Below, one piece after another: positions 9,391-31,607 of a DNA stretch of 33,175 nucleotides (positions within the stretch are counted from its first letter, which is position 1; the number at the start of each line of letters is the position of its first letter). This DNA comes from a virus, in the IMG/VR virus record IMGVR_UViG_3300024319_000043, positions 1-33,175 of that record. One strand, 5' to 3'. The notes below the pieces were generated by a model. That model had not been told where the DNA came from. It searched no databases and worked only from the letters and a program-made list of their open reading frames with translations. The translations under genes were made by a program, and so were the position numbers.

Positions 9391-9402
9391 TTTGTGCGTT
9401 GA
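9391..9402 (+). promoter_or_regulatory. Recurring box, candidate phage promoter element (copy 1)
   Basis: TTTGTGCGTTGA lies in the gap between the gp16-like and tail fibre genes, about 47 bases before the fibre ATG. The same 11-mer occurs at 24417 and, within one base, at 28307 and 31542. TTGATG could serve as a -35 hexamer, but no clear -10 follows at 16-18 bases. Confidence 0.45.
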
Positions 9403-9448
9403 TGTTGCCTGGCTCTGCGTGAGAACAAAGCAGAAAGCGAGGTAGTCT

Positions 9449-11947
9449 ATGACCATTGATGTATCGAACAACAATCCACGAATTGAGTACGCACTAGGCC
9501 AGGGCGTAAGCCAAAGCGTCTTTGCGGTTCCGTTTGAGTTCTTTGATAACAGCGACGTGAACATCTACTTCGATGGCGTCCTGAAGACTCAAGGCTCAGA
9601 CTACACGCTGACCGGCGGTGATGGCTCGACGGGCACAGCTACATTTAGCGTAGCTCTTGTTGGGGCTACCGGTGGTTCTATCATTTCGGTGGTACGCCAT
9701 GTATCCTTGGAGCGCAGCACTGACTTCGTTGCTGGCCAAGATATTAGCCGGGCCGCTTTGAATGAGCAGCTTGATACGATCATCGCTCAGATTGCTGATC
9801 TTGATAGTAAGGTTGATCGAACAATTCACTTGAGCGACTTCGAGGTTGCTCCTTCTATGCTTCTTACCGACGATCGCAAAGGTCGGGTATTGGCATTTGA
9901 CGCATCGACTGGCGATGTTGGTGCTGGCCCATTTTCAAACGACATTCAGGTCATTGCGGATAACATTACTCAAATCCTCGATGCAAACAATCAGGCTGCT
10001 GCTGCTGCTGCAAGTGAGGCTGCTGCTGCCAACAGTGCGACTGCTGCTCAAACTGCTGAGACTGCTGCTGAACTAGCTGAGACAAATGCAGAAGCGGCTG
10101 AGGCCAACGCTGCTGCAAGCGAAACTGCTGCCGCCTCTAGCGAAGCTAGCGCTGCAACATCGGCATCAAACGCTGCAAGCTCTGAGACTGCTGCCGCTTC
10201 TAGCGAGGCGAATGCAGCAAACTCAGCCACAGCTTCTGCTGCAAGTGCGTCATCCGCATCAAGCAGTGCAAGTGCAGCTTCTACTTCAGCCACGAATGCT
10301 GCTGCCTCAGAAACCAATGCCGCATCATCTGAAGTCAACGCAGCAGCAAGTGAGGCGGCAGCAGGCGGGTCAGAGGCTGCTGTTGCGTTATCAGCAACGA
10401 ACGCGGCAGCCAGCGCAGCCAGCGCGGCGACTTCGGCCTCAACAGCAACGACGAAGGCGTCTGAGGCACTGTCTTCAGCGTCAGCTGCGTCTGCAAGCGA
10501 GACGAACGCCGCAGCCAGTGAGGCAGCCGCCGCATCCAGCGAGGCAGCATTGGCGGTTTCTGAGGCTGCTGCGCTAGCATCTGAGGTGGCAGCCGCAGTA
10601 TCTGAAGCAAATGCCTCAGCGAGCGCATCGACCGCCTCAACGGCAGCGACAACAGCGACCACGCAGGCATCGAGCGCAACATCATCAGCGTCTAGCGCAG
10701 CAACAAGCGAGGCAAACGCAGCCACGTCTGAAACGAACGCAGCCTCAAGTGAGGCAGCCGCCGCTACTTCTGCATCTGCTGCCTCTACTAGCGCAGTCAA
10801 CGCGGCCACGTCAGAGACCAACTCGGCCTCCTCCGCTACGGCGGCAGCGTCTTCTGCGACATCGGCTTCGGCGTCTGCCGACGCAGCTCTTGCAGCTTTG
10901 GACAGTTTTGATGACCGCTACCTCGGGCAGAAGGCTTCTGATCCTACACTGGACAACGATGGCAACGCTCTTGTGGCTGGCGCTCTGTACTTCAACACCA
11001 CTGACGACATCATGAAGGTTTACGAGGGCTCTGTGTGGGTGGCTGCATATGCTTCACTCTCTGGAGCTTTGTTGCAAGCCAACAACCTTTCGGACGTTCT
11101 GAACGTTGCTGCGTCACGCACAAATCTTGGCCTTGGAACTGCGGCGATTACCGATGCAACCGCTTATGCCACAGCGGCTCAAGGCTCGCTTGCTGACAGC
11201 GCAGTCCAGCCCAACGACGTTAATCCACTTGTAGACACCCACCTAAACACTAGCACAGCTACCTCTGGTGAGGCATTGTTGTGGAACGGTAGTGACTACG
11301 AGTGGGGTGCTGGTGGTGCTACATCTCTTGATGGTCTATCTGATGCTAGAGTAGCAGATAGCTCTATTGGTATTGGTTCTGACGCTCTTGCTAATGACGA
11401 TGGCACAAACAACATTAATACTGCTGTGGGTGGCTTTGCACTTAATGCTAACACTTCTGGTATCAGAAATGCTGCGCTTGGCTATCAAGCTCTGCTAAAT
11501 AACACAACTGGTGCAAACAACGTAGCTGTTGGTCAGGGTGCTGCATTACTTAACACTACAGGTCAAGACAATGTTGCTATTGGTAGAATTGCAATGTCTA
11601 GCAATGTGTCAGGCGGAGAGAATGTAGCTGTAGGCTATCAAGCACTGTTTAACAGCACAGTAGGCCAGAACGTAGCTGTAGGTTATGACGCTGGTTCAAC
11701 GATTACTACAGGTACAAACCTGACTGTGCTAGGCCATAATGCTGAACCGTCTTCTGCTACAGCTACTAATGAAGTAACGCTCGGCAATACTTCGGTAGAC
11801 AAGTTCCGTATTCCCGGTTTGCAATCGTCTGCATCAGACGGTGACATATTGACCTACAACTCAAGTATTGATGCAATTGAATTGCAGCCATCTTCGGGTC
11901 TAAGCACAGGTAAAGCTATCGCTATGTCTATTGTCTTTGGAGGATAA
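9449..11947 (+). CDS. Tail fibre protein (T7-type N-terminus, Ala/Ser repeats, YadA-like C-terminal repeats)
   Basis: The protein has 832 residues. Residues 1 to about 140 match the T7 gp17 N-terminal, tail-binding type (opening VSNNNPRIEYALGQGVSQSVFAVPFEFF). Residues about 183-485 are an almost pure Ala/Ser/Thr/Glu/Asn repeat (motifs like AASEAAAASSEA), probably a trimeric coiled shaft. A transition segment near 490-550 (DRYLGQKASDPTLDNDGNAL) precedes a region at about 650-765 with NVAVGxxAL repeats, as in YadA/Hep_Hag beta-rolls. No S74 autocleaving chaperone is visible at the C-terminus. The fibre would recognise the host surface. The start has GAGG ten bases upstream. C-terminal codons are more AT-rich than the shaft, which suggests exchange. 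Confidence 0.82.
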   Translation: MTIDVSNNNPRIEYALGQGVSQSVFAVPFEFFDNSDVNIYFDGVLKTQGSDYTLTGGDGSTGTATFSVALVGATGGSIISVVRHVSLERSTDFVAGQDISRAALNEQLDTIIAQIADLDSKVDRTIHLSDFEVAPSMLLTDDRKGRVLAFDASTGDVGAGPFSNDIQVIADNITQILDANNQAAAAAASEAAAANSATAAQTAETAAELAETNAEAAEANAAASETAAASSEASAATSASNAASSETAAASSEANAANSATASAASASSASSSASAASTSATNAAASETNAASSEVNAAASEAAAGGSEAAVALSATNAAASAASAATSASTATTKASEALSSASAASASETNAAASEAAAASSEAALAVSEAAALASEVAAAVSEANASASASTASTAATTATTQASSATSSASSAATSEANAATSETNAASSEAAAATSASAASTSAVNAATSETNSASSATAAASSATSASASADAALAALDSFDDRYLGQKASDPTLDNDGNALVAGALYFNTTDDIMKVYEGSVWVAAYASLSGALLQANNLSDVLNVAASRTNLGLGTAAITDATAYATAAQGSLADSAVQPNDVNPLVDTHLNTSTATSGEALLWNGSDYEWGAGGATSLDGLSDARVADSSIGIGSDALANDDGTNNINTAVGGFALNANTSGIRNAALGYQALLNNTTGANNVAVGQGAALLNTTGQDNVAIGRIAMSSNVSGGENVAVGYQALFNSTVGQNVAVGYDAGSTITTGTNLTVLGHNAEPSSATATNEVTLGNTSVDKFRIPGLQSSASDGDILTYNSSIDAIELQPSSGLSTGKAIAMSIVFGG
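9995..10890 (+). repeat. Ala/Ser-coding degenerate repeat in tail fibre shaft
   Basis: This is a long run of GCN, TCN/AGY and GAG codons coding imperfect 7-14 residue Ala/Ser units. The codons drift from GCT-rich at the start to GCA/GCC-rich later, so the array is not a recent perfect tandem duplication. It creates long spurious frames on both strands. Length variation by recombination is expected in such shafts. Confidence 0.85.
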
Positions 11948-11952
11948 GAAAA

Positions 11953-12306
11953 ATGGCAGCTCCTAATATTGTGAACGTAACTACAATCACAGGCAAAACG
12001 GCAGTGCAGGCTGTTGGCACTAGCGCCACGGCAATCGCCACCAACTCTGCGGCAAGCGGTAAGGTGCTGAAGGTCAATGCGCTGTATGTGTCGAATGTGG
12101 ATGGCACAAATAACGCTGAGATTAACGTGGATTTATTCCGCTCAAGCACTGCGTATCACATTGGCAAGACGATTGTTGTGCCTGCCGATGCAACGCTCGA
12201 TGTTATCTCGAAGCCTATCTATCTTGAAGAGGGCGACAGCTTGCGCCTGACTGCCAGTGCGGCATCTGACCTAGAGGCGGTTTGCTCCTACGAAGAGATT
12301 AGCTAA
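11953..12306 (+). CDS. Small virion-type protein, cyanophage-like
   Basis: The protein has 117 residues (APNIVNVTTITGKTAVQAVG at the start, AASDLEAVCSYEEIS at the end). I recognise this as a small structural protein type common near fibre genes of marine phages and cyanophages; its function is unknown. It is predicted to be beta-rich, with no signal peptide. GGAGG sits nine bases before the start, and the stop overlaps the next gene (TAATG). It may form a decoration or a collar for the fibre or adhesin set, as inferred from its place between the fibre and the LamG proteins. Confidence 0.65.
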   Translation: MAAPNIVNVTTITGKTAVQAVGTSATAIATNSAASGKVLKVNALYVSNVDGTNNAEINVDLFRSSTAYHIGKTIVVPADATLDVISKPIYLEEGDSLRLTASAASDLEAVCSYEEIS

Positions 12307-13046
12307 TGGCTGAGTTCCCATCATCCAGTGTAGCTGATGGCGTCTGGACACTGAAGCAGCAGCGCAGGGCATTGCTGGGCAGTGCTTGGCCTGTTGCTGC
12401 TCCGACTGACCAATACTTTGCCAATGTCAGCTTATTGCTACATGGCGATGGCACTGATGGCTCGACTACGTTTACTGATAGTTCTTCTAATAATCTTACT
12501 GTAACAGCAAACGGCAATGCGCAGATCGACACTGCGGTTGTAAAGTATGGCACTGGGTCGATGCAGTTTGGTGCAGTTGGGAATTATATCTCTGTAGCCG
12601 CCGACACAGCCCTTACCTTTGGCTCTGGTGATTTTACTATTGAGTTTTGGGTTTACTTAAACACGCTGTCTGACAATGATTCTATTATATCTCAGGGAAC
12701 ATCTTCACAAAGTGATAACTGGCAATTAGCATATATCAGTAGTCGACTTTATTTTTATTATAGTAACCAGTCAGCTTCACTTGGTTCAACTTCTTTTTCA
12801 ACTGGGCAATGGTATCATATTGCAATGGTTGGAGAAGGCAGCACTATAAAAATTTATGTTGATGGCACTTTGGATGACACTGTTAATTATTCTTATAACT
12901 ATGGGTCGTATGTAACCAGAGTTGGTATAAATCGCGGCGGAACTGAAAACCTTGATGGTTATATTGACGACCTCCGCATCACCAAGGGCATTGCCCGTTA
13001 CACTGCCAACTTCACGCCGCCCACGGCTCCATTCCCAGATCAATGA
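12306..13046 (+). CDS. LamG-type adhesin with short N-terminal tag
   Basis: The protein has 246 residues. Residues 1-29 carry a tag (EFPSSSVADGVWTLKQQRRA ending in WP) that returns in the next two genes. Residues about 37-245 form one concanavalin-like LamG_3 domain: 'VSLLLHGDG', 'DSSSNNLTV', 'FTIEFWVYLN', 'GQWYHIAMV', 'IKIYVDGTLD' and 'GYIDDLRITKGIARYT'. Such domains bind carbohydrate, so a role in host-surface or capsule binding is likely. The middle (12660-12960) is visibly AT-rich compared with its surroundings. It is a paralogue of 13924..15378, with exact shared DNA segments. Confidence 0.75.
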   Translation: MAEFPSSSVADGVWTLKQQRRALLGSAWPVAAPTDQYFANVSLLLHGDGTDGSTTFTDSSSNNLTVTANGNAQIDTAVVKYGTGSMQFGAVGNYISVAADTALTFGSGDFTIEFWVYLNTLSDNDSIISQGTSSQSDNWQLAYISSRLYFYYSNQSASLGSTSFSTGQWYHIAMVGEGSTIKIYVDGTLDDTVNYSYNYGSYVTRVGINRGGTENLDGYIDDLRITKGIARYTANFTPPTAPFPDQ

Positions 13047-13054
13047 GGTGAGAC

Positions 13055-13924
13055 ATGTCGTATCCAACAACATCCTCTGCATCTGACGTTTGGTCTTTAC
13101 GTGATGCTTATAAAGCTGAGGCGGGTGATAACTGGCCTGCATTGCCTGAGCCTTTATCTGTTGATTATCTTATCATCGCAGGCGGTGGTGGTGGTGGTGA
13201 ATGGCAAGGCGGCGGTGGTGGTGCGGGTGGATACCTGACTGGTACAAGCTTGTCACTAGAGACTGGCATAGAATATACAATCACTGTTGGCGCTGGTGGC
13301 CCTCCAAAGGATCGTGGCTCATCAGGAACAACTGGCGGTAACTCTTCAGCATTTAGCCTCACAGCTATTGGTGGTGGTTATGGCGGCGCTAACGATGAAA
13401 ACGGCGGCGCTGGTGGTTCTGGTGGTGGTGCATCCGATGCAACAAGAAGTGGTGGTGCTGCCACAACTGGTCAAGGCTACCGTGGCGGTAACACTTTTGG
13501 CAACGGCGCAGGTGGTGCAGGCGGTGGTGGTGCAGGCGGACAGCCAATTGACATTACGTCATCGTCTCAGGCCAACGTAGTAGCCGACCACTTAGGCGGC
13601 GCAGGTCTTTCATCTAGCATTACTGGCACTGCTGTTCTTCGTGCAAGTGGTGGTAGCGGTGCATTATATAGTGACTCAACTACTGTTGGCCCCGTTGAGG
13701 GTGGCGGTGGTGCAGGTGGTGGCTCGTTCACTGCTGGAACTGCAAACACTGGCGGTGGTGGTGGTGGTAGCTACAGCTACACGCAAGCAGCAGCAGGCGG
13801 CTCAGGCGTAGTAATCATCCGCACTTTATCAACCGCAGCCTCCACAACAGGTTCACCAACTGTCACGACAGACGGATCGTATAACATCTACACCTTTACT
13901 GGCTCGGGGAGCATCACGTTCTAA
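13055..13924 (+). CDS. Glycine-rich adhesin-like protein with same N-terminal tag
   Basis: The protein has 289 residues. The N-terminus (SYPTTSSASDVWSLRDAYKA, then GDNWP) is the same tag as in its neighbours. After the lead-in VDYLIIAGGGGGG, residues about 45-255 are mostly Gly runs with Ala, Ser and Thr, and the end is 'SYNIYTFTGSGSITF'. This matches the glycine-rich surface domain found in phage tail tips, where poly-glycine helices form a receptor-binding sandwich (known for S16 gp38-type adhesins). No enzyme motif is seen. The start has GAGGTGA upstream, and the stop overlaps the next ATG. Confidence 0.7.
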   Translation: MSYPTTSSASDVWSLRDAYKAEAGDNWPALPEPLSVDYLIIAGGGGGGEWQGGGGGAGGYLTGTSLSLETGIEYTITVGAGGPPKDRGSSGTTGGNSSAFSLTAIGGGYGGANDENGGAGGSGGGASDATRSGGAATTGQGYRGGNTFGNGAGGAGGGGAGGQPIDITSSSQANVVADHLGGAGLSSSITGTAVLRASGGSGALYSDSTTVGPVEGGGGAGGGSFTAGTANTGGGGGGSYSYTQAAAGGSGVVIIRTLSTAASTTGSPTVTTDGSYNIYTFTGSGSITF

Positions 13925-15378
13925 TGGCACAGTTTCCTTCATCATCATCGGCATATGGCATCTGGTCTTTGAAAGAGCAGCGTGACGCTGTGCGTGGAGA
14001 TAACTGGCCCTTATACACACCTCCAAGCGATCCAAACTTTTCTGATGTCAGCTTATTGCTGCATGGCGATGGAACAAGCGGTGCGCAGAACAACACGTTC
14101 CTCGACAGCAGCACTAACGACTTTACCATCACCCGCAATGGTAACACCACGCAGGGCAGTTTTTCCCCATACAGCGTGTCTGGCCCGTATAACCCTGCAA
14201 CACACGGCGGTAGCGGGTATTTCGATGGGAGTGGGGACTATCTGTCGATATTAGATAACACTGCATTTGACCTAGAAGGTTCTGATTTTACTATAGAATG
14301 TTGGGTTTACCTTAACACTTATGGCAGCAATTCATTTTCTGCGCCTGTAAGTAAGTGGGTTACTGGCATCCAGTCATGGACAACGTATATAAGTTCTAGT
14401 TCTATTATCTTCTCATATTCGCCTGATGGTTCAGCAGCTAGCTATGTAAACTATACTGCTTCTGTATCTAATCCTTTAAGCACATGGAGCCATTACGCTT
14501 TCACACGTTCAGGTGATACACTTTACATTTTTAAGGATGGTGTTCTTATAAACACTTTTTCTGTAACTGGTCTGGTTATACCAAACCGAACCAGCGCCTT
14601 GCAGATTGGCGCAACAAACAATGGCGGGTATGGAAACTTAAACGGCTATATAAACGACCTCCGCCTTGTCAAAGGCACAGCCCTCTATACATCTGCCTTC
14701 ACCCCACCAACCGCACCCCTCACTGCGGTATCTAACACATCGCTTCTGTGCAACTTCACCAACGCAGGCATCTTCGACAGCACTGGCAAGAACGTGCTTG
14801 AGACTGTGGGCAATGCGCAGATCGACACTGCGGTGACTAAGTTTGGCACTGGGTCGATGGAGTTCGATGGGAGTGGGGATTATTTATTTTCTTCTGCCAA
14901 TACCGCTTTTGACTTTGGGCTGAGTGCTGTTGATTTCACAATAGAGGCTTGGATTTATCCGCAGCAAAACAGAACAGTTCATACGATTGCGGCTGTGTGG
15001 CCCCAAGGTCTTGGCGAGGATCAATGGATTTTTTGCATAAGAGACGGAGTTGTTGGCCTTGTATGGTCGCCAGATAACACAAACGATGTCTTTATAAGTG
15101 GTGGCTCTGTAGCGTTAAATCAGTGGCATCATGTTGCAGTTACAAGAAACGGAAACACTTTTAGGACGTTTTTAAATGGGACGCAAACCGCATCTGGCAC
15201 TAACTCCTCAACATCTGGATCAAGCAACCCACTAACGATTGGATATTTTGGATCGGGGTCTGGAACATCTTCAACCTCTTATTGGGATGGCTACATAGAC
15301 GACCTACGCATTACCAAGGGCGTGGCTCGCTACACCACTAACTTCACCCCACCAACAGACCCATTCCCAGATCAGTGA
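13924..15378 (+). CDS. Double LamG adhesin with same N-terminal tag
   Basis: The protein has 484 residues. The tag (residues 1-29, AQFPSSSSAYGIWSLKEQRD then GDNWP) is followed by two LamG_3 domains, about residues 38-260 and 275-482. Both carry 'FTIExWVYxxx', 'W.H.A.T+.G', a 'DG/NG' turn and a closing 'GYI(N/D)DLR(L/I)(V/T)KG' motif. It looks like a partial duplication of the gene at 12306..13046: parts of the second domain and the C-terminal 'PFPDQ' end are nearly identical in DNA. It is likely a tail-tip carbohydrate-binding protein. Confidence 0.75.
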   Translation: MAQFPSSSSAYGIWSLKEQRDAVRGDNWPLYTPPSDPNFSDVSLLLHGDGTSGAQNNTFLDSSTNDFTITRNGNTTQGSFSPYSVSGPYNPATHGGSGYFDGSGDYLSILDNTAFDLEGSDFTIECWVYLNTYGSNSFSAPVSKWVTGIQSWTTYISSSSIIFSYSPDGSAASYVNYTASVSNPLSTWSHYAFTRSGDTLYIFKDGVLINTFSVTGLVIPNRTSALQIGATNNGGYGNLNGYINDLRLVKGTALYTSAFTPPTAPLTAVSNTSLLCNFTNAGIFDSTGKNVLETVGNAQIDTAVTKFGTGSMEFDGSGDYLFSSANTAFDFGLSAVDFTIEAWIYPQQNRTVHTIAAVWPQGLGEDQWIFCIRDGVVGLVWSPDNTNDVFISGGSVALNQWHHVAVTRNGNTFRTFLNGTQTASGTNSSTSGSSNPLTIGYFGSGSGTSSTSYWDGYIDDLRITKGVARYTTNFTPPTDPFPDQ

Positions 15379-15384
15379 GGCAGC

Positions 15385-15846: not shown

Positions 15847-15890
15847 CTTCCGAGATGATGTGACGTGGCCTGCTAAACCGGAATAAAGCT

Positions 15891-16115: not shown

Positions 16116-16119
16116 TCTG

Positions 16120-16485: not shown

Positions 16486-16934
16486 CCTTCCGACTTTCAG
16501 GACGCAGCTTGAGCAAGCTGGCAGGCGTGGATGAACATCTGGTAGCGGTAATAAAAACTGCTATTCACCTGACCAAGACTGACTTTGGTGTGATCTGCGG
16601 TGTGCGCACGATTGAGGAGCAGCGCCAGCTAGTAGCCAAGGGCGCCAGCAAAACCATGAAGTCTAAGCACCTGGACGGTGACGCTGCGGACCTCATGGCA
16701 TACATTGGCCCGCGTGGTTCCTGGGAGTTGAGTCTTTACGATGACATTGCTGATGCGATGAAGCAGGCCGCTATTGCTACGGGCGTTAGCCTTCGCTGGG
16801 GTGCAGCCTGGCATATCAATGATATTCGTAAATGGGACGGGACTATGGAAGAGGCGATGAATGAGTACGTTGATCTTCGCCGGTCGCAAGGTAAGCGCCC
16901 ATTCATTGATGGGCCTCACTTTGAGTTGACATAA
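16482..16934 (+). CDS. Endolysin, M15-family L-alanyl-D-glutamate-type peptidase
   Basis: The protein has 150 residues, with the zinc peptidase motifs of the M15C type: SKHLDGDAAD (residues 61-70, His63 and Asp70 as ligands), RWGAAW (105-110) and GPHFEL (144-149, His146). The length fits single-domain endolysins such as the T5 type. No signal peptide is present, so it needs the holin upstream. AAAGGAA precedes the ATG. Its 3' end overlaps the convergent DnaA-like gene by 19 bases, leaving no room for a terminator after the last late gene. Confidence 0.9.
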   Translation: MTFRLSGRSLSKLAGVDEHLVAVIKTAIHLTKTDFGVICGVRTIEEQRQLVAKGASKTMKSKHLDGDAADLMAYIGPRGSWELSLYDDIADAMKQAAIATGVSLRWGAAWHINDIRKWDGTMEEAMNEYVDLRRSQGKRPFIDGPHFELT

Positions 16935-17404
16935 TTCATTACGACATCGGTGATCTGATCCGCAAAGTATTCGGCCATGGTTTCGTATCTTTCTTTGATC
17001 GCTTCATCCACACACTTATCCAGGCATTCTTCGGAGAGCCTGGTATAAAGCAGCTCTGACATCGAGCCTGTCTTCAGGTCTATCTTTCTGAAGACATCTC
17101 CCTTTTTCCGCGCGTATCTCATGGCCTCATGATCCACGTCTTTATGGCAAGGCATTTTCTTTTTGCTAGCTTGCGGTCCTTTTAATAGTTCGCTGTGCCG
17201 ATAGATGCCGTGCGTCACTGACGAGTGGTGGATATTGAAGAACCTAGCAATCTGCCCTGTTGTGTATCCTGCCGCATTGAATGCGTGCATCGCTTCTTGG
17301 CGAGCCCTAACGAGCCTGGCATCTCTGTCTTTGCGGAGCATTTGCTCTACGGTGAGGTGATGCTTCTTGGCCACTGAGAAGAAGATTTCATTGTAGTCTG
17401 TCAT
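16916..17404 (-). CDS. Orphan DnaA domain IV-like DNA-binding protein
   Basis: The protein has 162 residues. Residues 1-27 resemble the helix leading into DnaA domain IV. Residues 28-70 (DARLVRARQEAMHAFNAAGY, then TTGQIARFFNIHHSSVTHGI) match its DnaA-box-binding helices, including a variant of the 'DHTTVxHA' signature as 'HHSSVTHG'. There is no AAA+ domain. The remaining 90 residues are charged and unknown. It could bind DnaA boxes in host or phage DNA and alter initiation. GGAGAA precedes the start. It is the last leftward gene, beyond a strong terminator, so its expression may differ from the rest. Confidence 0.78.
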   Translation of the reverse strand: MTDYNEIFFSVAKKHHLTVEQMLRKDRDARLVRARQEAMHAFNAAGYTTGQIARFFNIHHSSVTHGIYRHSELLKGPQASKKKMPCHKDVDHEAMRYARKKGDVFRKIDLKTGSMSELLYTRLSEECLDKCVDEAIKERYETMAEYFADQITDVVMNYVNSK

Positions 17405-17472: not shown

Positions 17473-17850
17473 TTAGAAGGGGATGCCATCGTTCAGGTCT
17501 TGCCCAAACTGTGGCTTGCTGGACTGTTGCTGGCCTGACTGTTTGTCAGACACATTGAAGGTCATGTAGGGCTTATCGTCTTTCATCTTGCGCCATGCAG
17601 CAAGCCGACGGAATACATTGAATGGGCCGGTGTAGTCTGGCGCTGCTTCATTGCCTTTCTTATCGTTCTCAAACAGAACGCCTGTCTTTTCGAAGACCTC
17701 GATGATGGTCTTGCCATCGCGTGTTTGATCTTTAACCAGGACGATCTTCTTGTCTTCGCCGTTGTCATTGATCTTGCCTTGCAGGATTAGCTTCTGCGTT
17801 TCGAATGGTGCGAATGCTGCACCGCGGTCTGTGTTGTCATAGTCTGCCAT
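17473..17850 (-). CDS. SSB-like single-stranded DNA-binding protein
   Basis: The protein has 125 residues. Two short OB-like segments are visible: an N-terminal 'DNTDRGAAFAPFE...LILQGKIND' and a core 'TGVLFENDKK...PDYTGPFNVFRRLAAWRKM...MTFNVSDK', the pattern of small phage SSB-like proteins. A Gln/Ser linker follows, and the end is DLNDGIPF, like the acidic SSB tip (DDDIPF) that recruits replication and repair partners. It would coat ssDNA for the annealing protein and exonuclease encoded just upstream. GGAG sits seven bases before the ATG. Confidence 0.7.
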   Translation of the reverse strand: MADYDNTDRGAAFAPFETQKLILQGKINDNGEDKKIVLVKDQTRDGKTIIEVFEKTGVLFENDKKGNEAAPDYTGPFNVFRRLAAWRKMKDDKPYMTFNVSDKQSGQQQSSKPQFGQDLNDGIPF

Positions 17851-22356: not shown

Positions 22357-22584
22357 TCAATATGGTACTGAGTCATCGATGTCTTCCGGCATAGGGTTTC
22401 GTTTCTCCCAAGCTGCGACTGATCGCTTTAAGAATTTATCCCTATCAAACAAAGGGTTGGTTGCTGCAAGTTCGTCAGCTACTACCTGCAATTGTGATGG
22501 CCAAGCGACCATAGGTCCAATCATATCTGCAATGAAGTTGTAGTGTTGACGTGTCATCTTTGGTGCGACTGTTGGGTTAGGCAT
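22357..22584 (-). CDS. Small conserved-looking protein, unknown
   Basis: The protein has 75 residues, starting at the ATG with CGGAG eight bases upstream. Helical segments 'RQHYNFIADMIGPMVAW', 'SQLQVVADELAAT' and 'RDKFLKRSVAAWEKRN' are followed by an acidic end. The pattern 'YNFIAD.I..........FADELA..NP.FDRDKFL+A' is common in small phage proteins of unknown role. The start overlaps the preceding gene by eight bases. Confidence 0.65.
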   Translation of the reverse strand: MPNPTVAPKMTRQHYNFIADMIGPMVAWPSQLQVVADELAATNPLFDRDKFLKRSVAAWEKRNPMPEDIDDSVPY

Positions 22585-22771
22585 TTTCGTACTCCGCTTT
22601 GCGTGATAGCCGACCTGGCTTATTGTTTGAGTTGTATTCTTTGCATAGTGCTTGAGCATCTGCTTCGGTGGTGGCAAAGCCGATGGTTGTCTTAGGTCCG
22701 GCGTGTGGTTCCAGACCTTTGGGCCAGTCTGGATTCTCACGCCACCATGTGCGGTGGAATACTTTATACAT
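22577..22771 (-). CDS. Small unknown protein, 64 residues
   Basis: The sequence 'YKVFHRTWWRENPDWPKGLE' then 'TTIGFATTEADAQALCKEYN' suggests a small alpha/beta protein like those that start 'Y.V..RTWW..N..WP.GLEP' in other phages. Its start overlaps the upstream gene by eight bases and its end overlaps the downstream start by eight, so the three are translationally coupled. Function unknown. Confidence 0.62.
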   Translation of the reverse strand: MYKVFHRTWWRENPDWPKGLEPHAGPKTTIGFATTEADAQALCKEYNSNNKPGRLSRKAEYENA

Positions 22772-22982: not shown

Positions 22983-23146
22983 TTGGGTTCTCCTTCTTGA
23001 GTTACTTTAGCGGCCAGGTTCCAGGCCATTGCTGCGGCGCAAGTTAGATGCGCTCGATCTTCCAGGCTGTGTGCGTCAATCCATTTCATTAGTTCGTCCC
23101 AATCTTCGGGAGTGTGGAACAGATTGACGGGTGCAATTTTAGGCAT
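22979..23146 (-). CDS. Small unknown protein, 55 residues
   Basis: This short frame begins MPKIAPVNLFHTPEDWDELM and ends KVTQEGEPK. 'NLFHTPEDWDELMKWIDAHSLEDRAHLTCAAAMAWNLAA' looks like a compact helical protein. The pattern of helices with 'A.MAWNLAAK' resembles small phage proteins seen near similar gene runs. AAAGGAAA precedes the ATG, and its TGA overlaps the next start (ATGA). Confidence 0.6.
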   Translation of the reverse strand: MPKIAPVNLFHTPEDWDELMKWIDAHSLEDRAHLTCAAAMAWNLAAKVTQEGEPK

Positions 23147-23484
23147 GTGCTTTCCTTTTCGTTTTAAATTTCGCAGGCGATCTCGGCACCGGCAGCTGCC
23201 GCTACAGATTCAATCCCCCGCGTGGCCCCCGATGACCCTCGCCACCAGCGTTGTCCTGTGTGTCTGAGAGACCTGGGTTCTGGGTGCTTCGCTCGCAGCT
23301 GAGAGACCTGGGTTCTGGGTGTTCCCGTTGATAGCTGGGCACTCTCAACGGCTCAGCCAGGATCAACTTCAGCCATCCTAGTCCCTGTCAGGAGAAGCAG
23401 GCTAGAGAGCGAGCGAAGCGAGCGGAAAATTTTTTGGGCCACCCTCTCGAGTGACCCGCCATTGTTTCCGCTATTTGGTGTGGT
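23147..23484. other. Gene-free, GC-rich gap with repeats
   Basis: No convincing frame is present on either strand. The gap holds a pair of 23-base direct repeats (23264..23286, 23299..23321). It also holds a 6-bp hairpin (CGTTGA/TCAACG near 23327..23351) and a repeat-rich GAGCGAGCGAAGCGAGCG stretch near 23409. A stem GGGTCAC/GTGGCCC near 23440..23461 lies beside an A6T4-type tract on the minus strand. It separates the 155-residue gene from the run of small leftward genes and may hold a leader or second promoter. Confidence 0.6.
23264..23321. repeat. Two 23-base direct repeats
   Basis: The unit starts CTGAGAGACCTGGG and ends TTCTGGGTG. Copies lie at 23264..23286 and 23299..23321, identical, 35 bases apart start to start. 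The 12-base spacer contains GCTTCGCTCGC. Two copies are too few for a CRISPR array. Protein-binding iterons or an RNA leader element are possible. Confidence 0.8.
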
Positions 23485-23952
23485 CTAGGCTTCGATGCCC
23501 AGGGCCGCTAACTTGGCACGCTCCTCGGCGCTAACCTCTGGCTGACTTCCGTCGTCCAGCACGTTGGACGTTGGGGCGGTGCTGTACCCGTCTCCGAAGT
23601 CTGCCTTGTAAGCCGCTTGCGCCTCGCTCAACAGGGACTTGAGCGTGGTAACGGTGAATAGCTCGGCTTGTGCCTGTGCAACGCTGGCTTGGTAGTTGTT
23701 CTCGCTGATCTCGTCGCCGTTGCGGGCCCGCAGCCAGTGCTTAACCCAGCCGCGTTGCGTGTCCAGTCGCTTCTCCGCGCGGGGTAACCAGTACTCACAA
23801 AAGCGAATCTCTTGCTGCAGCTTCATCTGCCGCATAAAACGTAGGGTGTCTACTTGGCGCCAACCGTCGGCTGTTCCCTCGGTGTTGCTCGAACGAATGA
23901 ATTGCTCGCTCATGTTGGTGAATGTTTCCGCGATTTCGTTTACAAGTGTCAT
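23485..23952 (-). CDS. First leftward gene, unknown coiled protein
   Basis: The protein has 155 residues from the ATG with AGGAGAGAG upstream; a longer frame to 24048 is unlikely. It is helical and charged: 'TLVNEIAETFTNMSEQFIRS', 'RFMRQMKLQQEIRFCEYWLPRAEKRLDTQRGW', an Ala/Gln-rich helix near 95-120, and an acidic end. It is the gene nearest the divergent region on the leftward side, set apart by 338 bases from the rest. That place suggests an early regulator or host-takeover protein, but no motif supports a specific function. Confidence 0.6.
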   Translation of the reverse strand: MTLVNEIAETFTNMSEQFIRSSNTEGTADGWRQVDTLRFMRQMKLQQEIRFCEYWLPRAEKRLDTQRGWVKHWLRARNGDEISENNYQASVAQAQAELFTVTTLKSLLSEAQAAYKADFGDGYSTAPTSNVLDDGSQPEVSAEERAKLAALGIEA

Positions 23953-24020
23953 CTGATCTCTCTCCTGATCGGTTGTTTTATCTTCTGCTCCGCGTTTTTT
24001 TGCCCAAAGTGGGCGGCTGG

Positions 24021-24208
24021 AACGAGACAGGCTAGGAGTTGCCCACAACCGACGTAAGGAGGCTTGCAGTTCGCAATGGTCTTGTCTTGCAGGCCAACAG
24101 TAGCCAAGCAGGCTGAGCTATCGGAACAAGAGCCACATCGGCAAGGCAGAGAGAGGGTGGGAGAAGGCCATTGCGAACTGTTGTGGGCTGCTCCAAGCAG
24201 GGCTCGAT
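24021..24208. repeat. Large imperfect inverted repeat with exposed TAAGGAGG bulge
   Basis: Left arm GCTAGGAGTTGCCCACAA (24031..24048) matches the complement of 24181..24198 at 15 of 18 positions. CAGTTCGCAATGG (24067..24079) is a perfect 13-bp match to 24168..24180. An 18-base bulge between the left arms (24049..24066) holds a full ribosome-binding consensus on the plus strand. The apex is 88 bases and can fold further. Confidence 0.82.
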
Positions 24209-24416
24209 CTAGCCGTCCACTAGCAAAAAATCCCCTCACTATCCTATTCTCTCCCTTCTTCGCCTTCAGCCAGGAAAGAGCAATGAATGGAGCGCAACCC
24301 CGGACAAGCGATACTCACCCTTTAGGGCAGAGACAAGCAAGGCGCAGGCTCTGTTCATGAGTAGCGCGGTACTCCACCCCGACCAAAGGAGGGCGGAGTA
24401 TGGCCCAAGGTCACTC

Positions 24417-24428
24417 TTTGTGCGTTGA
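24417..24428 (+). promoter_or_regulatory. Recurring box before terminase genes (copy 2)
   Basis: TTTGTGCGTTGA runs on into CA, giving a perfect TTGACA -35 hexamer. TGTTAT or TATCAA lie 16-19 bases on as possible -10 elements. The box sits 79 bases before the small terminase start. This copy is the best candidate for the main rightward promoter. Confidence 0.55.
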
Positions 24429-24495
24429 CACAAGGGTTTAGCGACGTGTTATCAACGGGGGGAGAGAGGGAGAGGGGGGCTACAAGGAGACGCTG

Positions 24496-24873
24496 ATGAG
24501 CAACGTAGCAACTAGAAAACTAACCAGACGTCAGATAGCTCTGGTGGATATAATGGTATCAGAGGGGCTCAAGCCAGCACAGGCCGCTGAGAAGGCTGGG
24601 TACGCTCCTGGCAAGGCTGGGTATGTCAGTGCGTACAAGAGCCTGAAGACACCACACGTGCAGCAGTACATGATGCAGCGAATGAATGAGGAGTTCGGGC
24701 TAAGTGCTATGGCAGCGGTCAACACCGTGCGCAGACTGGCAACAGGGGCCAAGAGCGAGTACGTGCAGCTAGAGGCTAGCAAGGATTTACTTGATCGCGC
24801 TGGCTACAAGCCCATCGATCGGAGCCAGGTGCAGGTGGCGGGGGACATCAAAGTTAGTATTGACCTTGGATAG
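24496..24873 (+). CDS. Terminase small subunit
   Basis: The protein has 125 residues. An N-terminal HTH ('KLTRRQIALVDIMVSEGLKPAQAAEKAGYAPGKAG') leads into 'SAYKSLKTPHVQQYMMQRMNE', a helical middle, and 'YVQLEASKDLLDRAGYKPID' as in many phage small terminases. It would bind the packaging site, perhaps in the adjacent region, and deliver it to the large subunit at 26777. AAGGAG precedes the ATG. It is separated from the large subunit by nine small genes, which is unusual. Confidence 0.78.
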   Translation: MSNVATRKLTRRQIALVDIMVSEGLKPAQAAEKAGYAPGKAGYVSAYKSLKTPHVQQYMMQRMNEEFGLSAMAAVNTVRRLATGAKSEYVQLEASKDLLDRAGYKPIDRSQVQVAGDIKVSIDLG

Positions 24874-24932: not shown

Positions 24933-24969
24933 CTGCTCTAAGGTCCGCAACAAAAGTGTGAGGTGAGAT

Positions 24970-25351: not shown

Positions 25352-25355
25352 TCTG

Positions 25356-26277: not shown

Positions 26278-26280
26278 GAC

Positions 26281-26583: not shown

Positions 26584-26585
26584 GC

Positions 26586-26780
26586 TTGAGTTTTATCAAT
26601 ACCCTTTCTCAGCCTGAGCGAGATACTCTTCGGCGGGTGGTGAAGCTGGTTCACATGAAGCACCACCCCAAAGAGTTTGTAACCAACTACGAGGCCGACA
26701 AGATCATTGAGTCGATCGGGCCCGAAGTGGCTGGTCGCATGATTAAGGTTGGCATTGATAACCAGATTGGCAGCAAGTGA
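26586..26780 (+). CDS. Small helical protein with TTG start
   Basis: The protein has 64 residues: 'SFINTLSQPERDTLRRVVKL', then 'VHMKHHPKEFVTNYEADKII'. The TTG start has GGGAGTAAG upstream and sits just after the previous stop. The last codon overlaps the GTG of the large terminase. The pattern 'LS..E.+.LR.+V...H......+.T..EADK.I...GPE' is familiar from marine podoviruses, where such a protein precedes terminase. Function unknown. Confidence 0.62.
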   Translation: MSFINTLSQPERDTLRRVVKLVHMKHHPKEFVTNYEADKIIESIGPEVAGRMIKVGIDNQIGSK

Positions 26781-28306
26781 TAGACTTCAAATACAAACCG
26801 GACGGTGATGTTCTAAAGGCTTTCATGAAGTCGGACACATTCTTTCGCGGCATCCGCGGTCCGGTTGGTAGCGGGAAGTCTGTTGGCTCCTGTGTTGAAG
26901 TATTCCGGCGCGCGCTCGGTCAGGCTAAGGGGCCAGACGGGGTGCGTAAAAGCCGCTGGGCAATCATTCGGAACACAAACCCGCAGCTGAGAACCACAAC
27001 GATTAAGACCTGGTTGGATTGGTTTCCCGAGAATAGCTGGGGGAAGTTCACCTGGTCGGTGCCTTACACGCACCACATCAAGAAGGGTGACGTTGATCTT
27101 GAGGTAATTTTCCTGGCGCTCGATCGCCCAGAGGATGTGAAGAAGCTCCTTTCATTGGAGCTTACTGGCATTTGGATTAACGAGGCGCGTGAGATTCCAA
27201 AGAGTATCATCGATGCGTGTACTATGCGCGTTGGTCGTTATCCTTCTATGCGCGATGGTGGCCCTACCTGGACGGGTGTTATTGCTGATACGAACGCGCC
27301 CGAAGAGGACCACTGGTGGCCTATCATGTCCGGTGAGGTTCCTATTCCGGACCACATTCCGCGCGAGCAGGCAAAGATGCTGGTCAAGCCAGACAACTGG
27401 GAGTTCTTTACTCAGCCCGCTGGTATGATCGAGACCCGCGATGAGGATGGCGAGATCAACGGCTATGAGCCGAATAAGAGCGCCGAGAACCAAAAGCACA
27501 TGATGAATTCGTACTATCCGAACTTGGTTCAGGGTAAGACGAAATCATGGATCGATGTTTATGTGATGAATCGATTTGGCCACATTCAGGATGGGAAGCC
27601 AGTGTATCCAATGTTCGCGCCTGAGGTTCACATCGCCAAAGAAGAGATACCCATTGCGGCTGACCTGCCTGTTTATGTGGGTGTTGACTTCGGCCTTACC
27701 CCTGCCGCTGCTATTGGGCAAAAGGTTCGAGGCCGATGGTTGATCCAATCTGAGATTGTAGCCGTAGATATGGGTGTGGTTCGGTTTGCAGAGGTTCTGC
27801 GAAACGAGCTGTCTACCCGTTTCTTTGCCTGCCCGGAGGTTCATATCTTCGGTGATCCGGCTGGTGACTTCAGGGCTCAAACCGATGAATCAACGCCGTT
27901 TCAAATCTTGAGGGGCGCGGGCCTTCGAGCGTTCCCTACACACTCAAACTCTGTTGATCTTCGCCTTGAGTCGGTGGCTTCTCAGCTGATGAAGATGTCA
28001 GAGGGTAAAGCTGCGTTCTTGATTGATCGTCGGTGTGGCATGTTGATTAAGGGATTTGAGGGCGGATACGGATACAAGCGTATGGAGGTTAGCGGTGAGC
28101 GCTATGCCGACAAGCCTGACAAGAACATGTTCTCTCACATCCACGATGCGTTGCAGTACCTAATGCTTGGCGCTGGTGAGGGCCGGGCTCTGATGAACAA
28201 TCAGAATGCAGCCCAGCATACCGTTGCCAAGCGTGACTTCGATGTGTTTAACAAGCGATCAAATGGCAGGGGCCAGCGTAGGCAAGGCTTGTGGGCGCGC
28301 ATGTAA
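26777..28306 (+). CDS. terL: Terminase large subunit
   Basis: The protein has 509 residues. The ATPase half has Walker A 'GPVGSGKS' (28-35) and a Walker B-type 'LTGIWINEARE' (129-139) with Glu136 as the likely catalytic residue. The nuclease half has 'VGVDFG' (301-306, Asp304), 'FGDPAG' (358-363, Asp360) and 'SHIHDALQY' (453-461, Asp457). It pumps DNA into the procapsid and cuts concatemers. The GTG start overlaps the upstream stop. Full length for the family; no frameshift. Confidence 0.92.
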   Translation: MIDFKYKPDGDVLKAFMKSDTFFRGIRGPVGSGKSVGSCVEVFRRALGQAKGPDGVRKSRWAIIRNTNPQLRTTTIKTWLDWFPENSWGKFTWSVPYTHHIKKGDVDLEVIFLALDRPEDVKKLLSLELTGIWINEAREIPKSIIDACTMRVGRYPSMRDGGPTWTGVIADTNAPEEDHWWPIMSGEVPIPDHIPREQAKMLVKPDNWEFFTQPAGMIETRDEDGEINGYEPNKSAENQKHMMNSYYPNLVQGKTKSWIDVYVMNRFGHIQDGKPVYPMFAPEVHIAKEEIPIAADLPVYVGVDFGLTPAAAIGQKVRGRWLIQSEIVAVDMGVVRFAEVLRNELSTRFFACPEVHIFGDPAGDFRAQTDESTPFQILRGAGLRAFPTHSNSVDLRLESVASQLMKMSEGKAAFLIDRRCGMLIKGFEGGYGYKRMEVSGERYADKPDKNMFSHIHDALQYLMLGAGEGRALMNNQNAAQHTVAKRDFDVFNKRSNGRGQRRQGLWARM

Positions 28307-28317
28307 TTGTGCGTTGA
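28307..28317 (+). promoter_or_regulatory. Recurring box after terminase (copy 3)
   Basis: TTGTGCGTTGA begins right after the terminase stop, 61 bases before the next start. The following 30 bases resemble those after copy 2 (AGCG, then GTGTT, then AA). A promoter for portal and capsid genes is possible. Confidence 0.45.
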
Positions 28318-28367
28318 TGGCTGGATAGCGCTGTGTTTACCAATGCGTAATTTAGAAGGAGCATACC

Positions 28368-28607
28368 ATGTGCGGACGATCCGGCCCATCAGCGGCAGAA
28401 CAGCAGGCAGCAGCGCAGCGGCGCTTGGAAGCAGAGCAAGCTAAGCAAGAGGCAATCCAAGAGCGTGCCGGGCAAAAGCGCGAAGACATTAGCGATGCTC
28501 TTAGCGCACGCAGTGAGCGCAAGGGCACACGCGGTGGCGTAGGTCGTCGCTCACTGTTTTCCTCATCTAACACTGGGTCGGGCTTTATTGGTCGGTTCTC
28601 ACGATGA
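28368..28607 (+). CDS. Small Cys-start coiled protein upstream of portal
   Basis: The protein has 79 residues and begins MCGRSGPSAAEQQAAAQRRL, then a Gln/Glu/Arg-rich helix and a Ser/Gly/Arg tail. The MCG start parallels the gene at 25356. AGAAGGAG precedes the ATG, and the end overlaps the portal start by four bases. Such small helical proteins often lie before portals in T7-like marine phages; role unknown. Confidence 0.65.
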   Translation: MCGRSGPSAAEQQAAAQRRLEAEQAKQEAIQERAGQKREDISDALSARSERKGTRGGVGRRSLFSSSNTGSGFIGRFSR

Positions 28608-30133
28608 ACGACGCCGCAAAGAAGTACCTCTCAAAGTATGAGAAGGCCAAGGCATTCCGTGAAAACTGGGTGCCTCTCTTTGAGGAGTGCTATGAGTATG
28701 CGCTTCCTCAGCGTGAGTCATTTTATGCTGAGACTGCGGGCCAGCGTCGAGATGATAAAATCTTTGACGAGACCGCTGTCGTTGGCGTGCAAGAGTTTGC
28801 AAGCCGACTACAGCATGGCATCGTTCCTAACTTTGCTCGCTGGGCTGACTTTGCCGCAGGTAGCGAGGTTCCGCTAGAAGAACGTGACCGCGTTGATAAC
28901 GAGCTAGATGAAGTTACCGAGTATGTGTTCGAGGTGATCCAGAACTCAAACTTCGGCCAAGAGGTGCATGAGTCATTCATGGACCTGGCGGTTGGTACTG
29001 GCGTTATGGCGGTTGAGGAAGGGGATGCACTAAATCCAGTAGTGTTCTCTGCCATCCCCCTACCACATGTTGTGCTAGACACTGGCCCTGACGATCGAAT
29101 CGATCATGTGTTCCGCGAGCGCAAGAAGGTTCCCTTCGAGCATTTGCCGCTGATGTATCCTAAATCTACCTTCGACCCGAAGGTGATGGCGCTTATGTCT
29201 ACTGACAACACGACCGATGTTCTTGAGGTTGTTTGTCGTGATTACAGCAAGCGCAATGAAGAGGCGTACCTGCACTATGCAATCTGCCAGCGAACAAAGA
29301 CTGTTCTGCACTACAAGCAGATGAACGGTGTGGGTTCGAACCCATATGTTTGCTTCCGCTGGACTAAGTGTGCTGGTGAGGTCTATGGCCGTGGCCCGCT
29401 CATTAATGCGCTGTCGGCAATCAAGACAACGAACCTAACTATCGAGTTGATCCTTGAGAATGCTCAGATGTCTATCTCTGGGATTTACCAGATGGAAGAT
29501 GATGGCGTTGTGAACCCTGATACTATTCAGTTGGTTCCTGGCTCGATCATTCCCAAGGCAATGGGGTCGAGCGGATTGCAGCCTATCAATGCGGCTGGTC
29601 GTTTTGACGTGGCTCAGCTTGTTCTCAGCGACATGCGGCTGAACATTAAGCGCGCTCTATACAACGATATGCTTGGCAATCCTGACAAGACACCTGCGAC
29701 TGCGACTGAGGTTGCGGAGCGTATGGCCGATCTATCCCGCCGGATGGGCGCCGCCTTTGGTCGCTTGCAGTCTGAGCTTGTTCAGCCTGTTCTTCAGCGT
29801 GTGGTCTACATCTTGAAGAAGCAGGGCCGTATCGAATTACCAACGATCAATGGTCGTGAGGTCAAGGTTAAGCCGACATCGCCTCTCGCGCAGGCTCAAG
29901 CTAACCAGGATATCTCAAGCGTAGCTCGCTTCCTGGAAATGGTTGGAGGCGTCTTCGGTCCTGAAATGTTGCAGATGCTCATAGACAGTGAAGAAGTAGC
30001 TGTTCACCTTGCTAAAAAGTTTGGTGTGCCAGACCGCTTGATTCGTGACGAAGAACAGCGTAAGCAGATAGCTGCATTAGCGCAGCAAATGGCTCAACAG
30101 CAACAGGGGATGCCAGTTGAACAAGAAGGTTAA
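28604..30133 (+). CDS. Portal (head-tail connector) protein, T7 gp8-like
   Basis: The protein has 509 residues, close to T7 gp8 (536). 'YEKAKAFRENWVPLFEECYEYALPQRESF' at the start, 'LQHGIVPNFARWADFAAGSE' and 'TPATATEVAERMADLSRRMGAAFGRLQSELVQPVLQRVVYIL' near 360-410 are hallmarks of the podovirus head-to-tail connecting family. It forms the twelve-part ring for DNA entry and tail attachment. Its end overlaps the next gene by 17 bases. Confidence 0.9.
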   Translation: MNDAAKKYLSKYEKAKAFRENWVPLFEECYEYALPQRESFYAETAGQRRDDKIFDETAVVGVQEFASRLQHGIVPNFARWADFAAGSEVPLEERDRVDNELDEVTEYVFEVIQNSNFGQEVHESFMDLAVGTGVMAVEEGDALNPVVFSAIPLPHVVLDTGPDDRIDHVFRERKKVPFEHLPLMYPKSTFDPKVMALMSTDNTTDVLEVVCRDYSKRNEEAYLHYAICQRTKTVLHYKQMNGVGSNPYVCFRWTKCAGEVYGRGPLINALSAIKTTNLTIELILENAQMSISGIYQMEDDGVVNPDTIQLVPGSIIPKAMGSSGLQPINAAGRFDVAQLVLSDMRLNIKRALYNDMLGNPDKTPATATEVAERMADLSRRMGAAFGRLQSELVQPVLQRVVYILKKQGRIELPTINGREVKVKPTSPLAQAQANQDISSVARFLEMVGGVFGPEMLQMLIDSEEVAVHLAKKFGVPDRLIRDEEQRKQIAALAQQMAQQQQGMPVEQEG

Positions 30134-30374: not shown

Positions 30375-31111
30375 GCGAATCGCTTATCACAGAAGGTCAG
30401 CCTGAGACGACGCAGGTTGAGCAAACGGAAGCCGCTTCGGGCGAACCCCCCTCCTCCCTCCCTGAGCGTCCGGAGTGGCTTCCTGAGAAATACAACACCG
30501 GCGAAGATTTGGCCAAAGCATACAAGGCTTTGGAGTCTAAGCTGGGCAGCAAAGAAGAAGACCTTCGGAAGACTATCCTCGATGAGCTTCAGCAAGAGGC
30601 TTACGGTGATCGGCCCGAGAGTGCTGGTGATTATCAGTTGCCGGAGTCAATTGATCCTGAGACTGCGGTTGATAGCGAGCTTATGTCTTGGTGGTCGGAA
30701 CATGCGTTTGAGAATGGCTACAGCCAGGACGAGTTCCAAAAAGGCATTGAGATGTATATGCAGGCCACGCAACAGAATGTGCCTGACCTCGATGCTGAGG
30801 CTGCTCGACTTGGCGACAATGCCTCTGCGCGCGTTGAGTCAGCTAGTGCCTTTGCCTCTAAGTTCTTCCCCGATGAAGTAATGCCTGCCATTGAGCGGAT
30901 GTGCGAAAGCGCTGAGGGCATCATGGCGCTTGAGGTTATCATGGAGGGAATGAAGGATGGTTCATTCTCTGGCGATACTTCTGCCGTTGATCGCCTTACG
31001 CCTGAGTCACTTCAGACCATGATGCAGGACGATCGGTATCACAACCCAGCGCGTCGTGATGCTGGCTTTGTTAAGCAGGTAGAAGATGGCTTCAAGAAAC
31101 TCTATGGCTAA
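30371..31111 (+). CDS. Scaffolding (capsid assembly) protein
   Basis: The protein has 246 residues and is very acidic. A Gln/Glu/Thr-rich disordered N-terminus leads into 'RPEWLPEKYNTGEDLAKAYKALESKLGSKEEDL', the pattern of T7 gp9-like scaffolds. The end is helical and more basic ('FVKQVEDGFKKLYG'), as needed to touch the capsid protein. It lies between portal and major capsid protein. The end overlaps the next frame by up to 26 bases. Confidence 0.82.
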   Translation: MSESLITEGQPETTQVEQTEAASGEPPSSLPERPEWLPEKYNTGEDLAKAYKALESKLGSKEEDLRKTILDELQQEAYGDRPESAGDYQLPESIDPETAVDSELMSWWSEHAFENGYSQDEFQKGIEMYMQATQQNVPDLDAEAARLGDNASARVESASAFASKFFPDEVMPAIERMCESAEGIMALEVIMEGMKDGSFSGDTSAVDRLTPESLQTMMQDDRYHNPARRDAGFVKQVEDGFKKLYG

Positions 31112-31607
31112 GCCACTGATTTCGCACGGTAACTTTGAGCTGCACAAATTGCGGGAGCGTGACATCTCCCCTTTTGTGTCTGCTCTTTCCAAAGAGAACG
31201 TCCGAGAGTTTGAAGTTCTTTACGAAGACAGCCCTTACGAACGTCTGATCGATTCCCTTGGCGATGACCTAATCCATGCAGTTTGGGTTGAGGGTGAAGT
31301 CCTGGCAATCACTGGCGTCTATGAGGGCGTCTTCTGGATCATGTTCTCGCGTGAGATCGTAAAGCATTGGCGCGGCTTGGTTCGGGCCGCACCTAAGCTG
31401 GTTCAGTTCTATCATAACTTCCATGATGAGCTTACCTGCGACATTTGGTCAGAGAATAAGTTCACCCTGAATTGGGCGACTAACCTGGGGTTCGAGCCTC
31501 AAGGCGTCTACGATGATGAAGGTGGCAACGCGATTGTGCATTTTGTGCGTTGCAATCACTGGTACACTAATGTTGGTTCGGAACCATCACGGCCCGTGAT
31601 GCACTGA
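31086..31607 (+). CDS. Gp13-like internal virion protein (GNAT-like fold)
   Basis: The protein has 173 residues from the ATG at 31086, or 167 from the ATG at 31104, which gives 'MAKPLISHGNFELHKLRERD'. Segments 'AVWVEGEVLAITGVY', 'FSREIVKHWRGLVRAAPKLVQFYHNFHDELTCDIW' and 'NWATNLGFEPQGVY' follow the acyltransferase-like layout seen in T7 gp13-type proteins, which help assemble the internal core. The acetyl-CoA loop is not clear, so enzyme activity is doubtful. A copy of the TTTGTGCGTTG box lies in its 3' part (31542). Confidence 0.62.
   Translation: MASRNSMAKPLISHGNFELHKLRERDISPFVSALSKENVREFEVLYEDSPYERLIDSLGDDLIHAVWVEGEVLAITGVYEGVFWIMFSREIVKHWRGLVRAAPKLVQFYHNFHDELTCDIWSENKFTLNWATNLGFEPQGVYDDEGGNAIVHFVRCNHWYTNVGSEPSRPVMH

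Follow-up and report, generated by a model that had tools for sequence, protein, structure and literature searches.

Many ocean phages carry T7-like virion genes and no RNA polymerase of their own, which raises the question of how the timing of their late genes is set. We addressed this question in a 33,175-base virus record (IMGVR_UViG_3300024319_000043; the window, meaning the whole stretch analysed), in which a short box recurs on the plus strand before the structural gene blocks. We consider it likely that this box marks four late promoters, which are read by the host sigma-70 polymerase and switched on by a small phage protein of the XRE helix-turn-helix family. The sequence comparison shows the box itself, its strand, its four places, its conservation at the nucleotide level, a TG dinucleotide at a fixed distance, and the joint presence and loss of the box and the XRE gene. 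An earlier note on this DNA had stated that the phage has no RNA polymerase gene. In agreement with this, no polymerase or sigma factor family was found among the Pfam families listed (25 of the 28 that matched) for the 44 window proteins; the three families outside that listing had E-values of about 0.005 or worse. According to one paper on an isolate, a polymerase was not found there either and dependence on the host was inferred (PMC8024684).

The box and its four places

The 10-base core TTGTGCGTTG was found as an exact copy at 9392-9401, 24418-24427, 28307-28316 and 31543-31552, always on the plus strand and never on the other. As only 0.07 copies were expected and none of 100 dinucleotide shuffles gave four, the recurrence that the earlier note had reported is real. 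The 11-mer TTTGTGCGTTG is exact on the plus strand at 9391, 24417 and 31542, and the copy at 28306 reads ATTGTGCGTTG; the common core is therefore TTGTGCGTTG, and the copy noted earlier at 28307 is exact in the core but not in the 11-mer. When two mismatches to the 11-mer were allowed no excess was detected (13 found versus 11.6 expected), so that only near-exact copies are meaningful. A ten-base match that had been pointed out at 19445 lies inside a leftward gene and was read as chance, because in the relatives both strands carry scattered one-mismatch copies.

Three of the copies lie in true gaps on one strand (within 9377-9448, 22983-24495 and 28307-28367), as had been claimed, and the fourth lies in frame inside the open reading frame (ORF) 31086-31607, the gene preceding the capsid gene. 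The box at 9392 stands upstream of the tail-fibre gene (9449-11947, plus strand; PHROG tail fiber protein, E 8.4e-33), and the box at 24418 heads the unit of the small terminase gene (24496-24873, plus strand; PHROG terminase small subunit, E 2.8e-14). The box at 28307 directly follows the large terminase gene (26777-28306, plus strand, from the PHROG-annotated window scan) and lies upstream of the head-tail connector gene (28604-30133, plus strand; PHROG head-tail adaptor, E 1.4e-92), with a small ORF at 28368-28607 between the two. Downstream of the box at 31543 is the major capsid gene (31686-32495, plus strand; PHROG major head protein, E 1.4e-59).

Relatives were gathered from viral contigs by their large terminase (80 loci, among the matches listed). 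Across a set of these loci and others that we collected, the closest fit to the core differed at no more than one base in 77 of 90 distinct terminase/connector gaps, in 52 of 55 distinct stretches upstream of the capsid gene and in 29 of 67 distinct stretches covering the 200 bases upstream of the small terminase gene. No match with at most one mismatch was detected on the other strand of these three sets (0/90 for the terminase/connector gaps). The tail-fibre box is also kept at the equivalent place, and thus all four places recur in relatives. The earlier note had let its case depend on the box being present in the same gaps of relatives, where it was indeed found in the numbers of distinct stretches just given. 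Where close relatives lack a copy here, the next start codon mostly lies no more than approx. 15 bases from the end of the terminase gene, which leaves no gap.

The motif search of both strands, which had been proposed as a check, gave the same strand bias in relatives as in the window. Exact copies in 17 records numbered 41 in the late direction versus 0 in the opposite one; for one-mismatch copies the numbers were 30 versus 18. The string TTGTGC[GA]TTG occurred 133 times forward and twice in reverse in 783 kb of close relatives, and in 595 kb of Hodr-like relatives 0 times forward and twice in reverse. In an unbiased 9-mer census of 21 records bearing the XRE gene the box 9-mers were top-ranked, and TTGTGCGTT had 0 copies in the box-less clade described below. 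A database-wide 14-mer scan led to the examination of 77 newly numbered stretches, of which 39 carried genes of the present phage group; the remaining ones look like chance.

The capsid copy reads F-V-R-C in the frame of the preceding gene, and its codons were tallied in 44 distinct stretches (those with more than two mismatches, 1 of 55 distinct stretches, were left out). The codon TTT was used in 44/44, GTG in 42 of 43 valines and CGT in 43/43 arginines, and the cysteine codon that follows, the third base of which is the first outside the box, was TGC in 34 and TGT in 10. In the connector gene, a string that resembles the box and codes for LCVEEGD has codons that vary freely among 30 distinct copies. 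Judged from these codons, the box is conserved as DNA and not as protein.

For the promoter layout we aligned the sites that differ from the core at no more than one position. At a distance of 16-18 bases from the box a TG dinucleotide followed in 36 of 43 gap sites, in 18 of 21 capsid sites and in 25 of 36 other sites (exact TTGTG[CA][GA]TTG, chiefly before the tail fibre and some from the small-terminase region), the background TG means in other windows being 11-19%. With the final TTG of the box taken as the start of a -35 element, the four window spacers are 17, 18, 18 and 19 bases. The tail-fibre promoter then has TTGATG at 9399-9404, TG at 9420-9421 and a -10-like element at 9423-9428; the small-terminase promoter has TTGACA at 24425-24430, TG at 24447-24448 and TATCAA at 24450-24455; the connector promoter has TTGATG at 28314-28319, TG at 28334-28335 and TTACCA at 28337-28342; and the capsid promoter has TTGCAA at 31550-31555 and TG at 31571-31572. 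A full TTGACA is thus present at the small-terminase site, and the agreement of TTGATG, TTGATG and TTGCAA at the others is only partial. The -10-like hexamers (GAACAA, TATCAA, TTACCA and TGGTTC) are poor, though TG is enriched at the expected place. The earlier note had listed AGCG, GTGTT and AA as shared downstream of the copies at 24417 and 28307; GTGTT and AA correspond to the -10-like element that is kept in relatives, but AGCG is not kept at the terminase/connector gap.

Alternatively, strong host sigma-70 promoters could account for the box simply as their -35 region, and no phage factor would be involved. The TTGACA is intact in small-terminase promoters, where all 15 non-redundant box-type sites read TTGTG[CA][GA]TTGACA, and the spacer lengths fit. 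Against this, the -35 and -10 hexamers are poor at three of the four promoters in the window, and in the aligned sites the seven bases TTGTGC[GA] upstream of TTG are nearly as conserved as TTG itself. Furthermore, in the clade without the XRE gene the small-terminase promoter keeps TTGACA and the box is absent, from which it follows that the upstream part functions separately. Among 127 distinct stretches with the small-terminase promoter, the box was upstream in 64, a palindromic GTGACGnnACGTCAC-like element in 53 and something else in 10. Both main forms share TTGACA, the -10 region and a G-rich leader, and two upstream forms on a common core imply that the upstream part is a module separate from the -35 element. 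We therefore regard a bare host promoter as very improbable. The box sites are probably late promoters for the host RNA polymerase with an added upstream site. The two options of the earlier note, a sigma-70-like -35 region or a site for a phage activator, fit together here, with TTG at the -35 position and an upstream TTGTGC[GA] that is lost together with one regulator gene.

Two further observations were made at the small-terminase promoter. The GTGACGnnACGTCAC element (L012, L026, L037, L077 and others) often has a second related copy farther upstream and follows neither of the two helix-turn-helix genes discussed below. The G-rich leader at 24456-24480 (GGGGGGAGAGAGGGAGAGGGGGG), directly after the -10 element, is almost unchanged in many relatives; possible roles are those of a packaging signal, a transcript leader or a G-quadruplex.

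The XRE gene as candidate regulator

The regulator gene that disappears with the box lies at 21179-21397 on the minus strand, starts with GTG and encodes 72 amino acids (protein 21182-21397). The protein matched Pfam HTH_3 (PF01381) with 29.8 bits against a cut-off of 23, and it was predicted by AlphaFold with a pLDDT of 91.5; both the model match and the helical fold place it in the XRE family. In a profile search the nearest solved chains were C.EcoT38IS (E 1.6e-6) and other small XRE proteins including C.AhdI (0.0085), and the predicted fold matched HipB, C.AhdI, C.BclI and P22 C2 (best TM-score approx. 0.8, E 0.003 or worse). The PHROG matches were to transcription regulators, including CII-like ones, and were all weak. 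The recognition-helix stretch SL(I/V)HKWE..KR(I/V)PS is nearly constant across the box-bearing phages.

The comparison of candidate early genes covered 35 records, each 25 kb or longer; G001 and G063 stand outside the XRE count, their early region being missing. A stand-alone XRE gene was present in 21 of the 35 records, and all 21 carry 3-5 exact boxes. In four records (G018, G070, G071 and G075) the XRE gene is absent and each has 0 boxes, while the genes for a 94-residue helix-turn-helix protein, p72, p157, RusA and the exonuclease are retained. In the wider clade around G018, 16 records, none contained an exact box, and at all 16 loci the XRE gene was missing between two kept neighbours. 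A tree of the terminase, connector and capsid proteins placed this clade nested within the box-bearing phages with a support of 0.99, and from this position we concluded that the XRE gene and the boxes were lost there. The tail-fibre box is gone before the homologous gene, the terminase/connector gap box is gone as well, and the capsid copy has become TTGTTCGTTG through a synonymous valine change (readable in G018, G070 and G075). Seven records of the Hodr or MEP301 type contain 0 boxes and no stand-alone XRE gene; a related domain with another recognition helix occurs within a longer protein in five of them and was not found in G051 and MEP301. In Hodr-like phages (L083 15431-15958, L322-L328) this related domain is fused in a protein of approx. 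160-180 amino acids, again with another recognition helix and no box.

Among the genes tested, the XRE gene is in this comparison the only one that tracks the box both ways. We therefore propose its product as the best candidate for the protein that reads the box, binding and activation being what we infer from the shared pattern.

The other early genes were dissociated from the box. The strongest of them was the second helix-turn-helix gene (21306-21590, minus strand, 94 amino acids), which we at first favoured for its co-occurrence and its nearly fixed recognition helix; the constancy of that helix is biased, as the loci L146-L225 were fetched by a pattern within it. The XRE gene starts within the 3' end of this gene in another frame (overlap 21309-21397), and the overlapping pair recurs in 147 of the 150 loci that extend far enough to show it, the three exceptions being one record, G018. 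If the box were the operator of the 94-residue protein, a late regulator with a LacI/XRE-like recognition helix, one could point to the presence of its gene in 20 of the 21 long records bearing XRE gene and box and to its absence from the seven box-less Hodr- and MEP301-type records. Its profile is also weakly like LacI/CcpA headpieces (E 0.017), and the box resembles the lac operator half-site, which we take to be TTGTGAGC; its predicted structure gave only general XRE/LacI-like matches. The gene is absent from G007, which has the XRE gene and three boxes, and present in the four long records of the box-less clade with 0 boxes. Box and protein thus each occur without the other, and we dropped the protein as an unlikely reader. 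The genes p157 (19305-19778) and p72 (22357-22740) co-occur with the box, but each of the two is lacking in one or more of the long records with boxes, and both are kept in records of the box-less clade; they were rejected.

Another factor could also read the box, such as a host regulator, an unrecognised phage sigma factor or a single-stranded DNA-binding protein (SSB), as SSB-type activation exists in phage N4. A host could supply such a regulator, and the SSB-like gene (17473-17850) is found in 18 of the 21 long records with XRE gene and box, being missing from G028, G043 and G064, which are all below 29 kb and possibly fragments. This gene is kept in three of the four long records of the box-less clade (it was not found in G018), so it does not track the box, and the absence of sigma and polymerase families from the Pfam listing argues against the sigma-factor version. 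We consider such a factor quite unlikely. A DnaA-type reading was also rejected: the box resembles part of the DnaA box, which we assume to be TTATNCACA, and the window encodes a stand-alone DnaA domain IV helix-turn-helix protein (16916-17404, minus strand; PF08299, Bac_DnaA_C, E 6.4e-9, over the cut-off) with a possible replication or regulatory role, yet this domain was present in only 1 of 21 other records (G011), of which 18 carry the box. Base-for-base covariation of the variant TTGTGAGTTG with the regulator was considered as well, since the L050/L070 clade changes both box and helix, but was not relied on because L060 and L221 show TTGTGAGTTG at the small-terminase site together with the usual helix.

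The promoters in question would consist of TTGTGC[GA] joined directly to the TTG of the -35 element, a spacer of 17-19 bases and a TG-containing -10 region, and would precede the packaging, connector, capsid and tail-fibre genes. The early leftward operon would make the XRE protein, of 70-84 amino acids among these phages, which would then bind the box beside the -35 element and recruit or activate the host sigma-70 polymerase at promoters with a weak core. In this way the packaging and virion genes would come on once early products exist. The host sigma-70 enzyme is the putative partner in this scheme, and activation is favoured over repression because the promoters vanish whole when the XRE gene is lost.

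The opposite sign of action would have the XRE protein bind the box and repress the late genes early, until its dilution or inactivation frees them. Small XRE proteins are often repressors, and binding over the -35 element would block the polymerase. The clade without the XRE gene has lost the whole fibre and terminase/connector promoters and not the operators alone, which would be expected if these promoters were useless without an activator, and the weak look of the promoters speaks against any need for a repressor. Repression is thus, in our estimate, quite improbable.

Several observations weigh against the proposed activation through the box by the XRE protein. The box is non-palindromic and no conserved second half-site was found in the aligned sites, whereas XRE proteins usually bind dyads as dimers, and no exact box adjoins the XRE gene in the window. 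The capsid copy of the box-less clade still matches in 9 of 10 positions, and G062, which has only a divergent XRE gene, keeps one exact capsid box. At the small-terminase sites the TG is 16-18 bases away in only 4 of 15 cases, with 6 at 19, and the palindromic GTGACGnnACGTCAC element takes the place of the box in many relatives (the 53 of 127 stretches mentioned above), XRE-bearing ones included. Finally, the loss of the XRE gene is a single evolutionary event.

The surrounding genome

Bases 1-138 and 33038-33175 of the window repeat each other with one mismatch. This terminal match makes a circular or terminally redundant (circularised) phage genome of approx. 33.0 kb probable. Its rightward genes encode the terminase, connector, capsid, tail tube, internal virion proteins, tail fibre and endolysin; its leftward genes (approx. 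16.9-23 kb) encode replication and recombination functions and the small helix-turn-helix proteins. By large terminase the closest isolate is Pelagibacter phage Hodr, with 62% identity. A host call from large-terminase relatives binned in metagenome-assembled genomes was abandoned, as these gave contradictory results (Rhodobacterales, Gammaproteobacteria, Euryarchaeota and others).

In the gap between the capsid and tail tube genes (32496-32530) a G run stands opposite a C run and could form a strong hairpin, perhaps an RNA processing or termination element. After the tail fibre, 12306-13046 and 13924-15378 match the same baseplate/virion families twice over; when 16 records were compared, neither ORF had a relative there, and the two are likely host-binding cargo. 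Two window proteins matched Pfam Laminin_G_3 (best E 8.7e-39). Among the relatives, record G013 (L140-L142, 43,851 bases) carries several early genes in two copies and may be a joined or mixed contig.

Comparison with known systems

The analysis yields a defined promoter set, one candidate protein of 72 residues and a gene-loss clade as a natural control, and the box motif could be used to annotate late promoters in many unannotated marine contigs of the group. Phage activators at -35 regions and small XRE activators are already known kinds. In the literature searched, open-licence papers, we found no description of the box, of its T7-like placement at four promoters or of the proposed regulator. 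We give about an even chance to the wider view that an undescribed family of phage proteins of 70-84 amino acids serves as the single late-gene switch, through an asymmetric 10-base box fused to the -35 element, in widespread marine podovirus-like phages. A tiny activator working with the host enzyme would then stand in for a T7-style pair of polymerase and promoter, with a box that can be swapped, or lost with its regulator.

In T7 one class III promoter each precedes the connector, capsid and tail-fibre genes, and the present boxes are found at those places in a T7-like structural gene order. Unlike in T7, no phage polymerase family was listed for the window proteins, the site is bipartite with a variable spacer and not a continuous promoter, and the candidate regulator is a small activator. 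Lambda CII is a small helix-turn-helix activator that sits over the -35 element and recognises the direct repeat TTGC-N6-TTGC. The present protein resembles it as a small helix-turn-helix protein proposed to act at a -35 element and in its weak CII-like PHROG matches (E 1.9e-5 to 0.006), but the aligned box sites do not contain the TTGC-N6-TTGC repeat. No lysogeny gene was listed in the window protein scans made.

The controller (C) proteins of restriction-modification systems (C.EcoT38IS, C.AhdI and C.Esp1396I) are likewise small XRE proteins; C.EcoT38IS and C.AhdI are the ones near by sequence among solved structures, and C proteins are found among the fold matches as well. According to one study, C.Esp1396I bound upstream recruits the sigma subunit, a precedent for activation by an XRE protein (PMC4041747). 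In contrast to the C proteins, no restriction-modification family was among those listed for the 44 window proteins, the site is a single non-palindromic 10-mer and not a pair of dyad-symmetric C-boxes, and four phage late promoters would be governed here where C proteins govern their own operon. Phage Mu encodes a late activator, C, by which several late promoters are driven through the host polymerase (PMC4461284), and it is such an activator of several late promoters that we propose for the present phage. The two differ in that the scans of the window proteins listed no match to the Mu C family and that the box described here is fused to the TTG of the -35 element.

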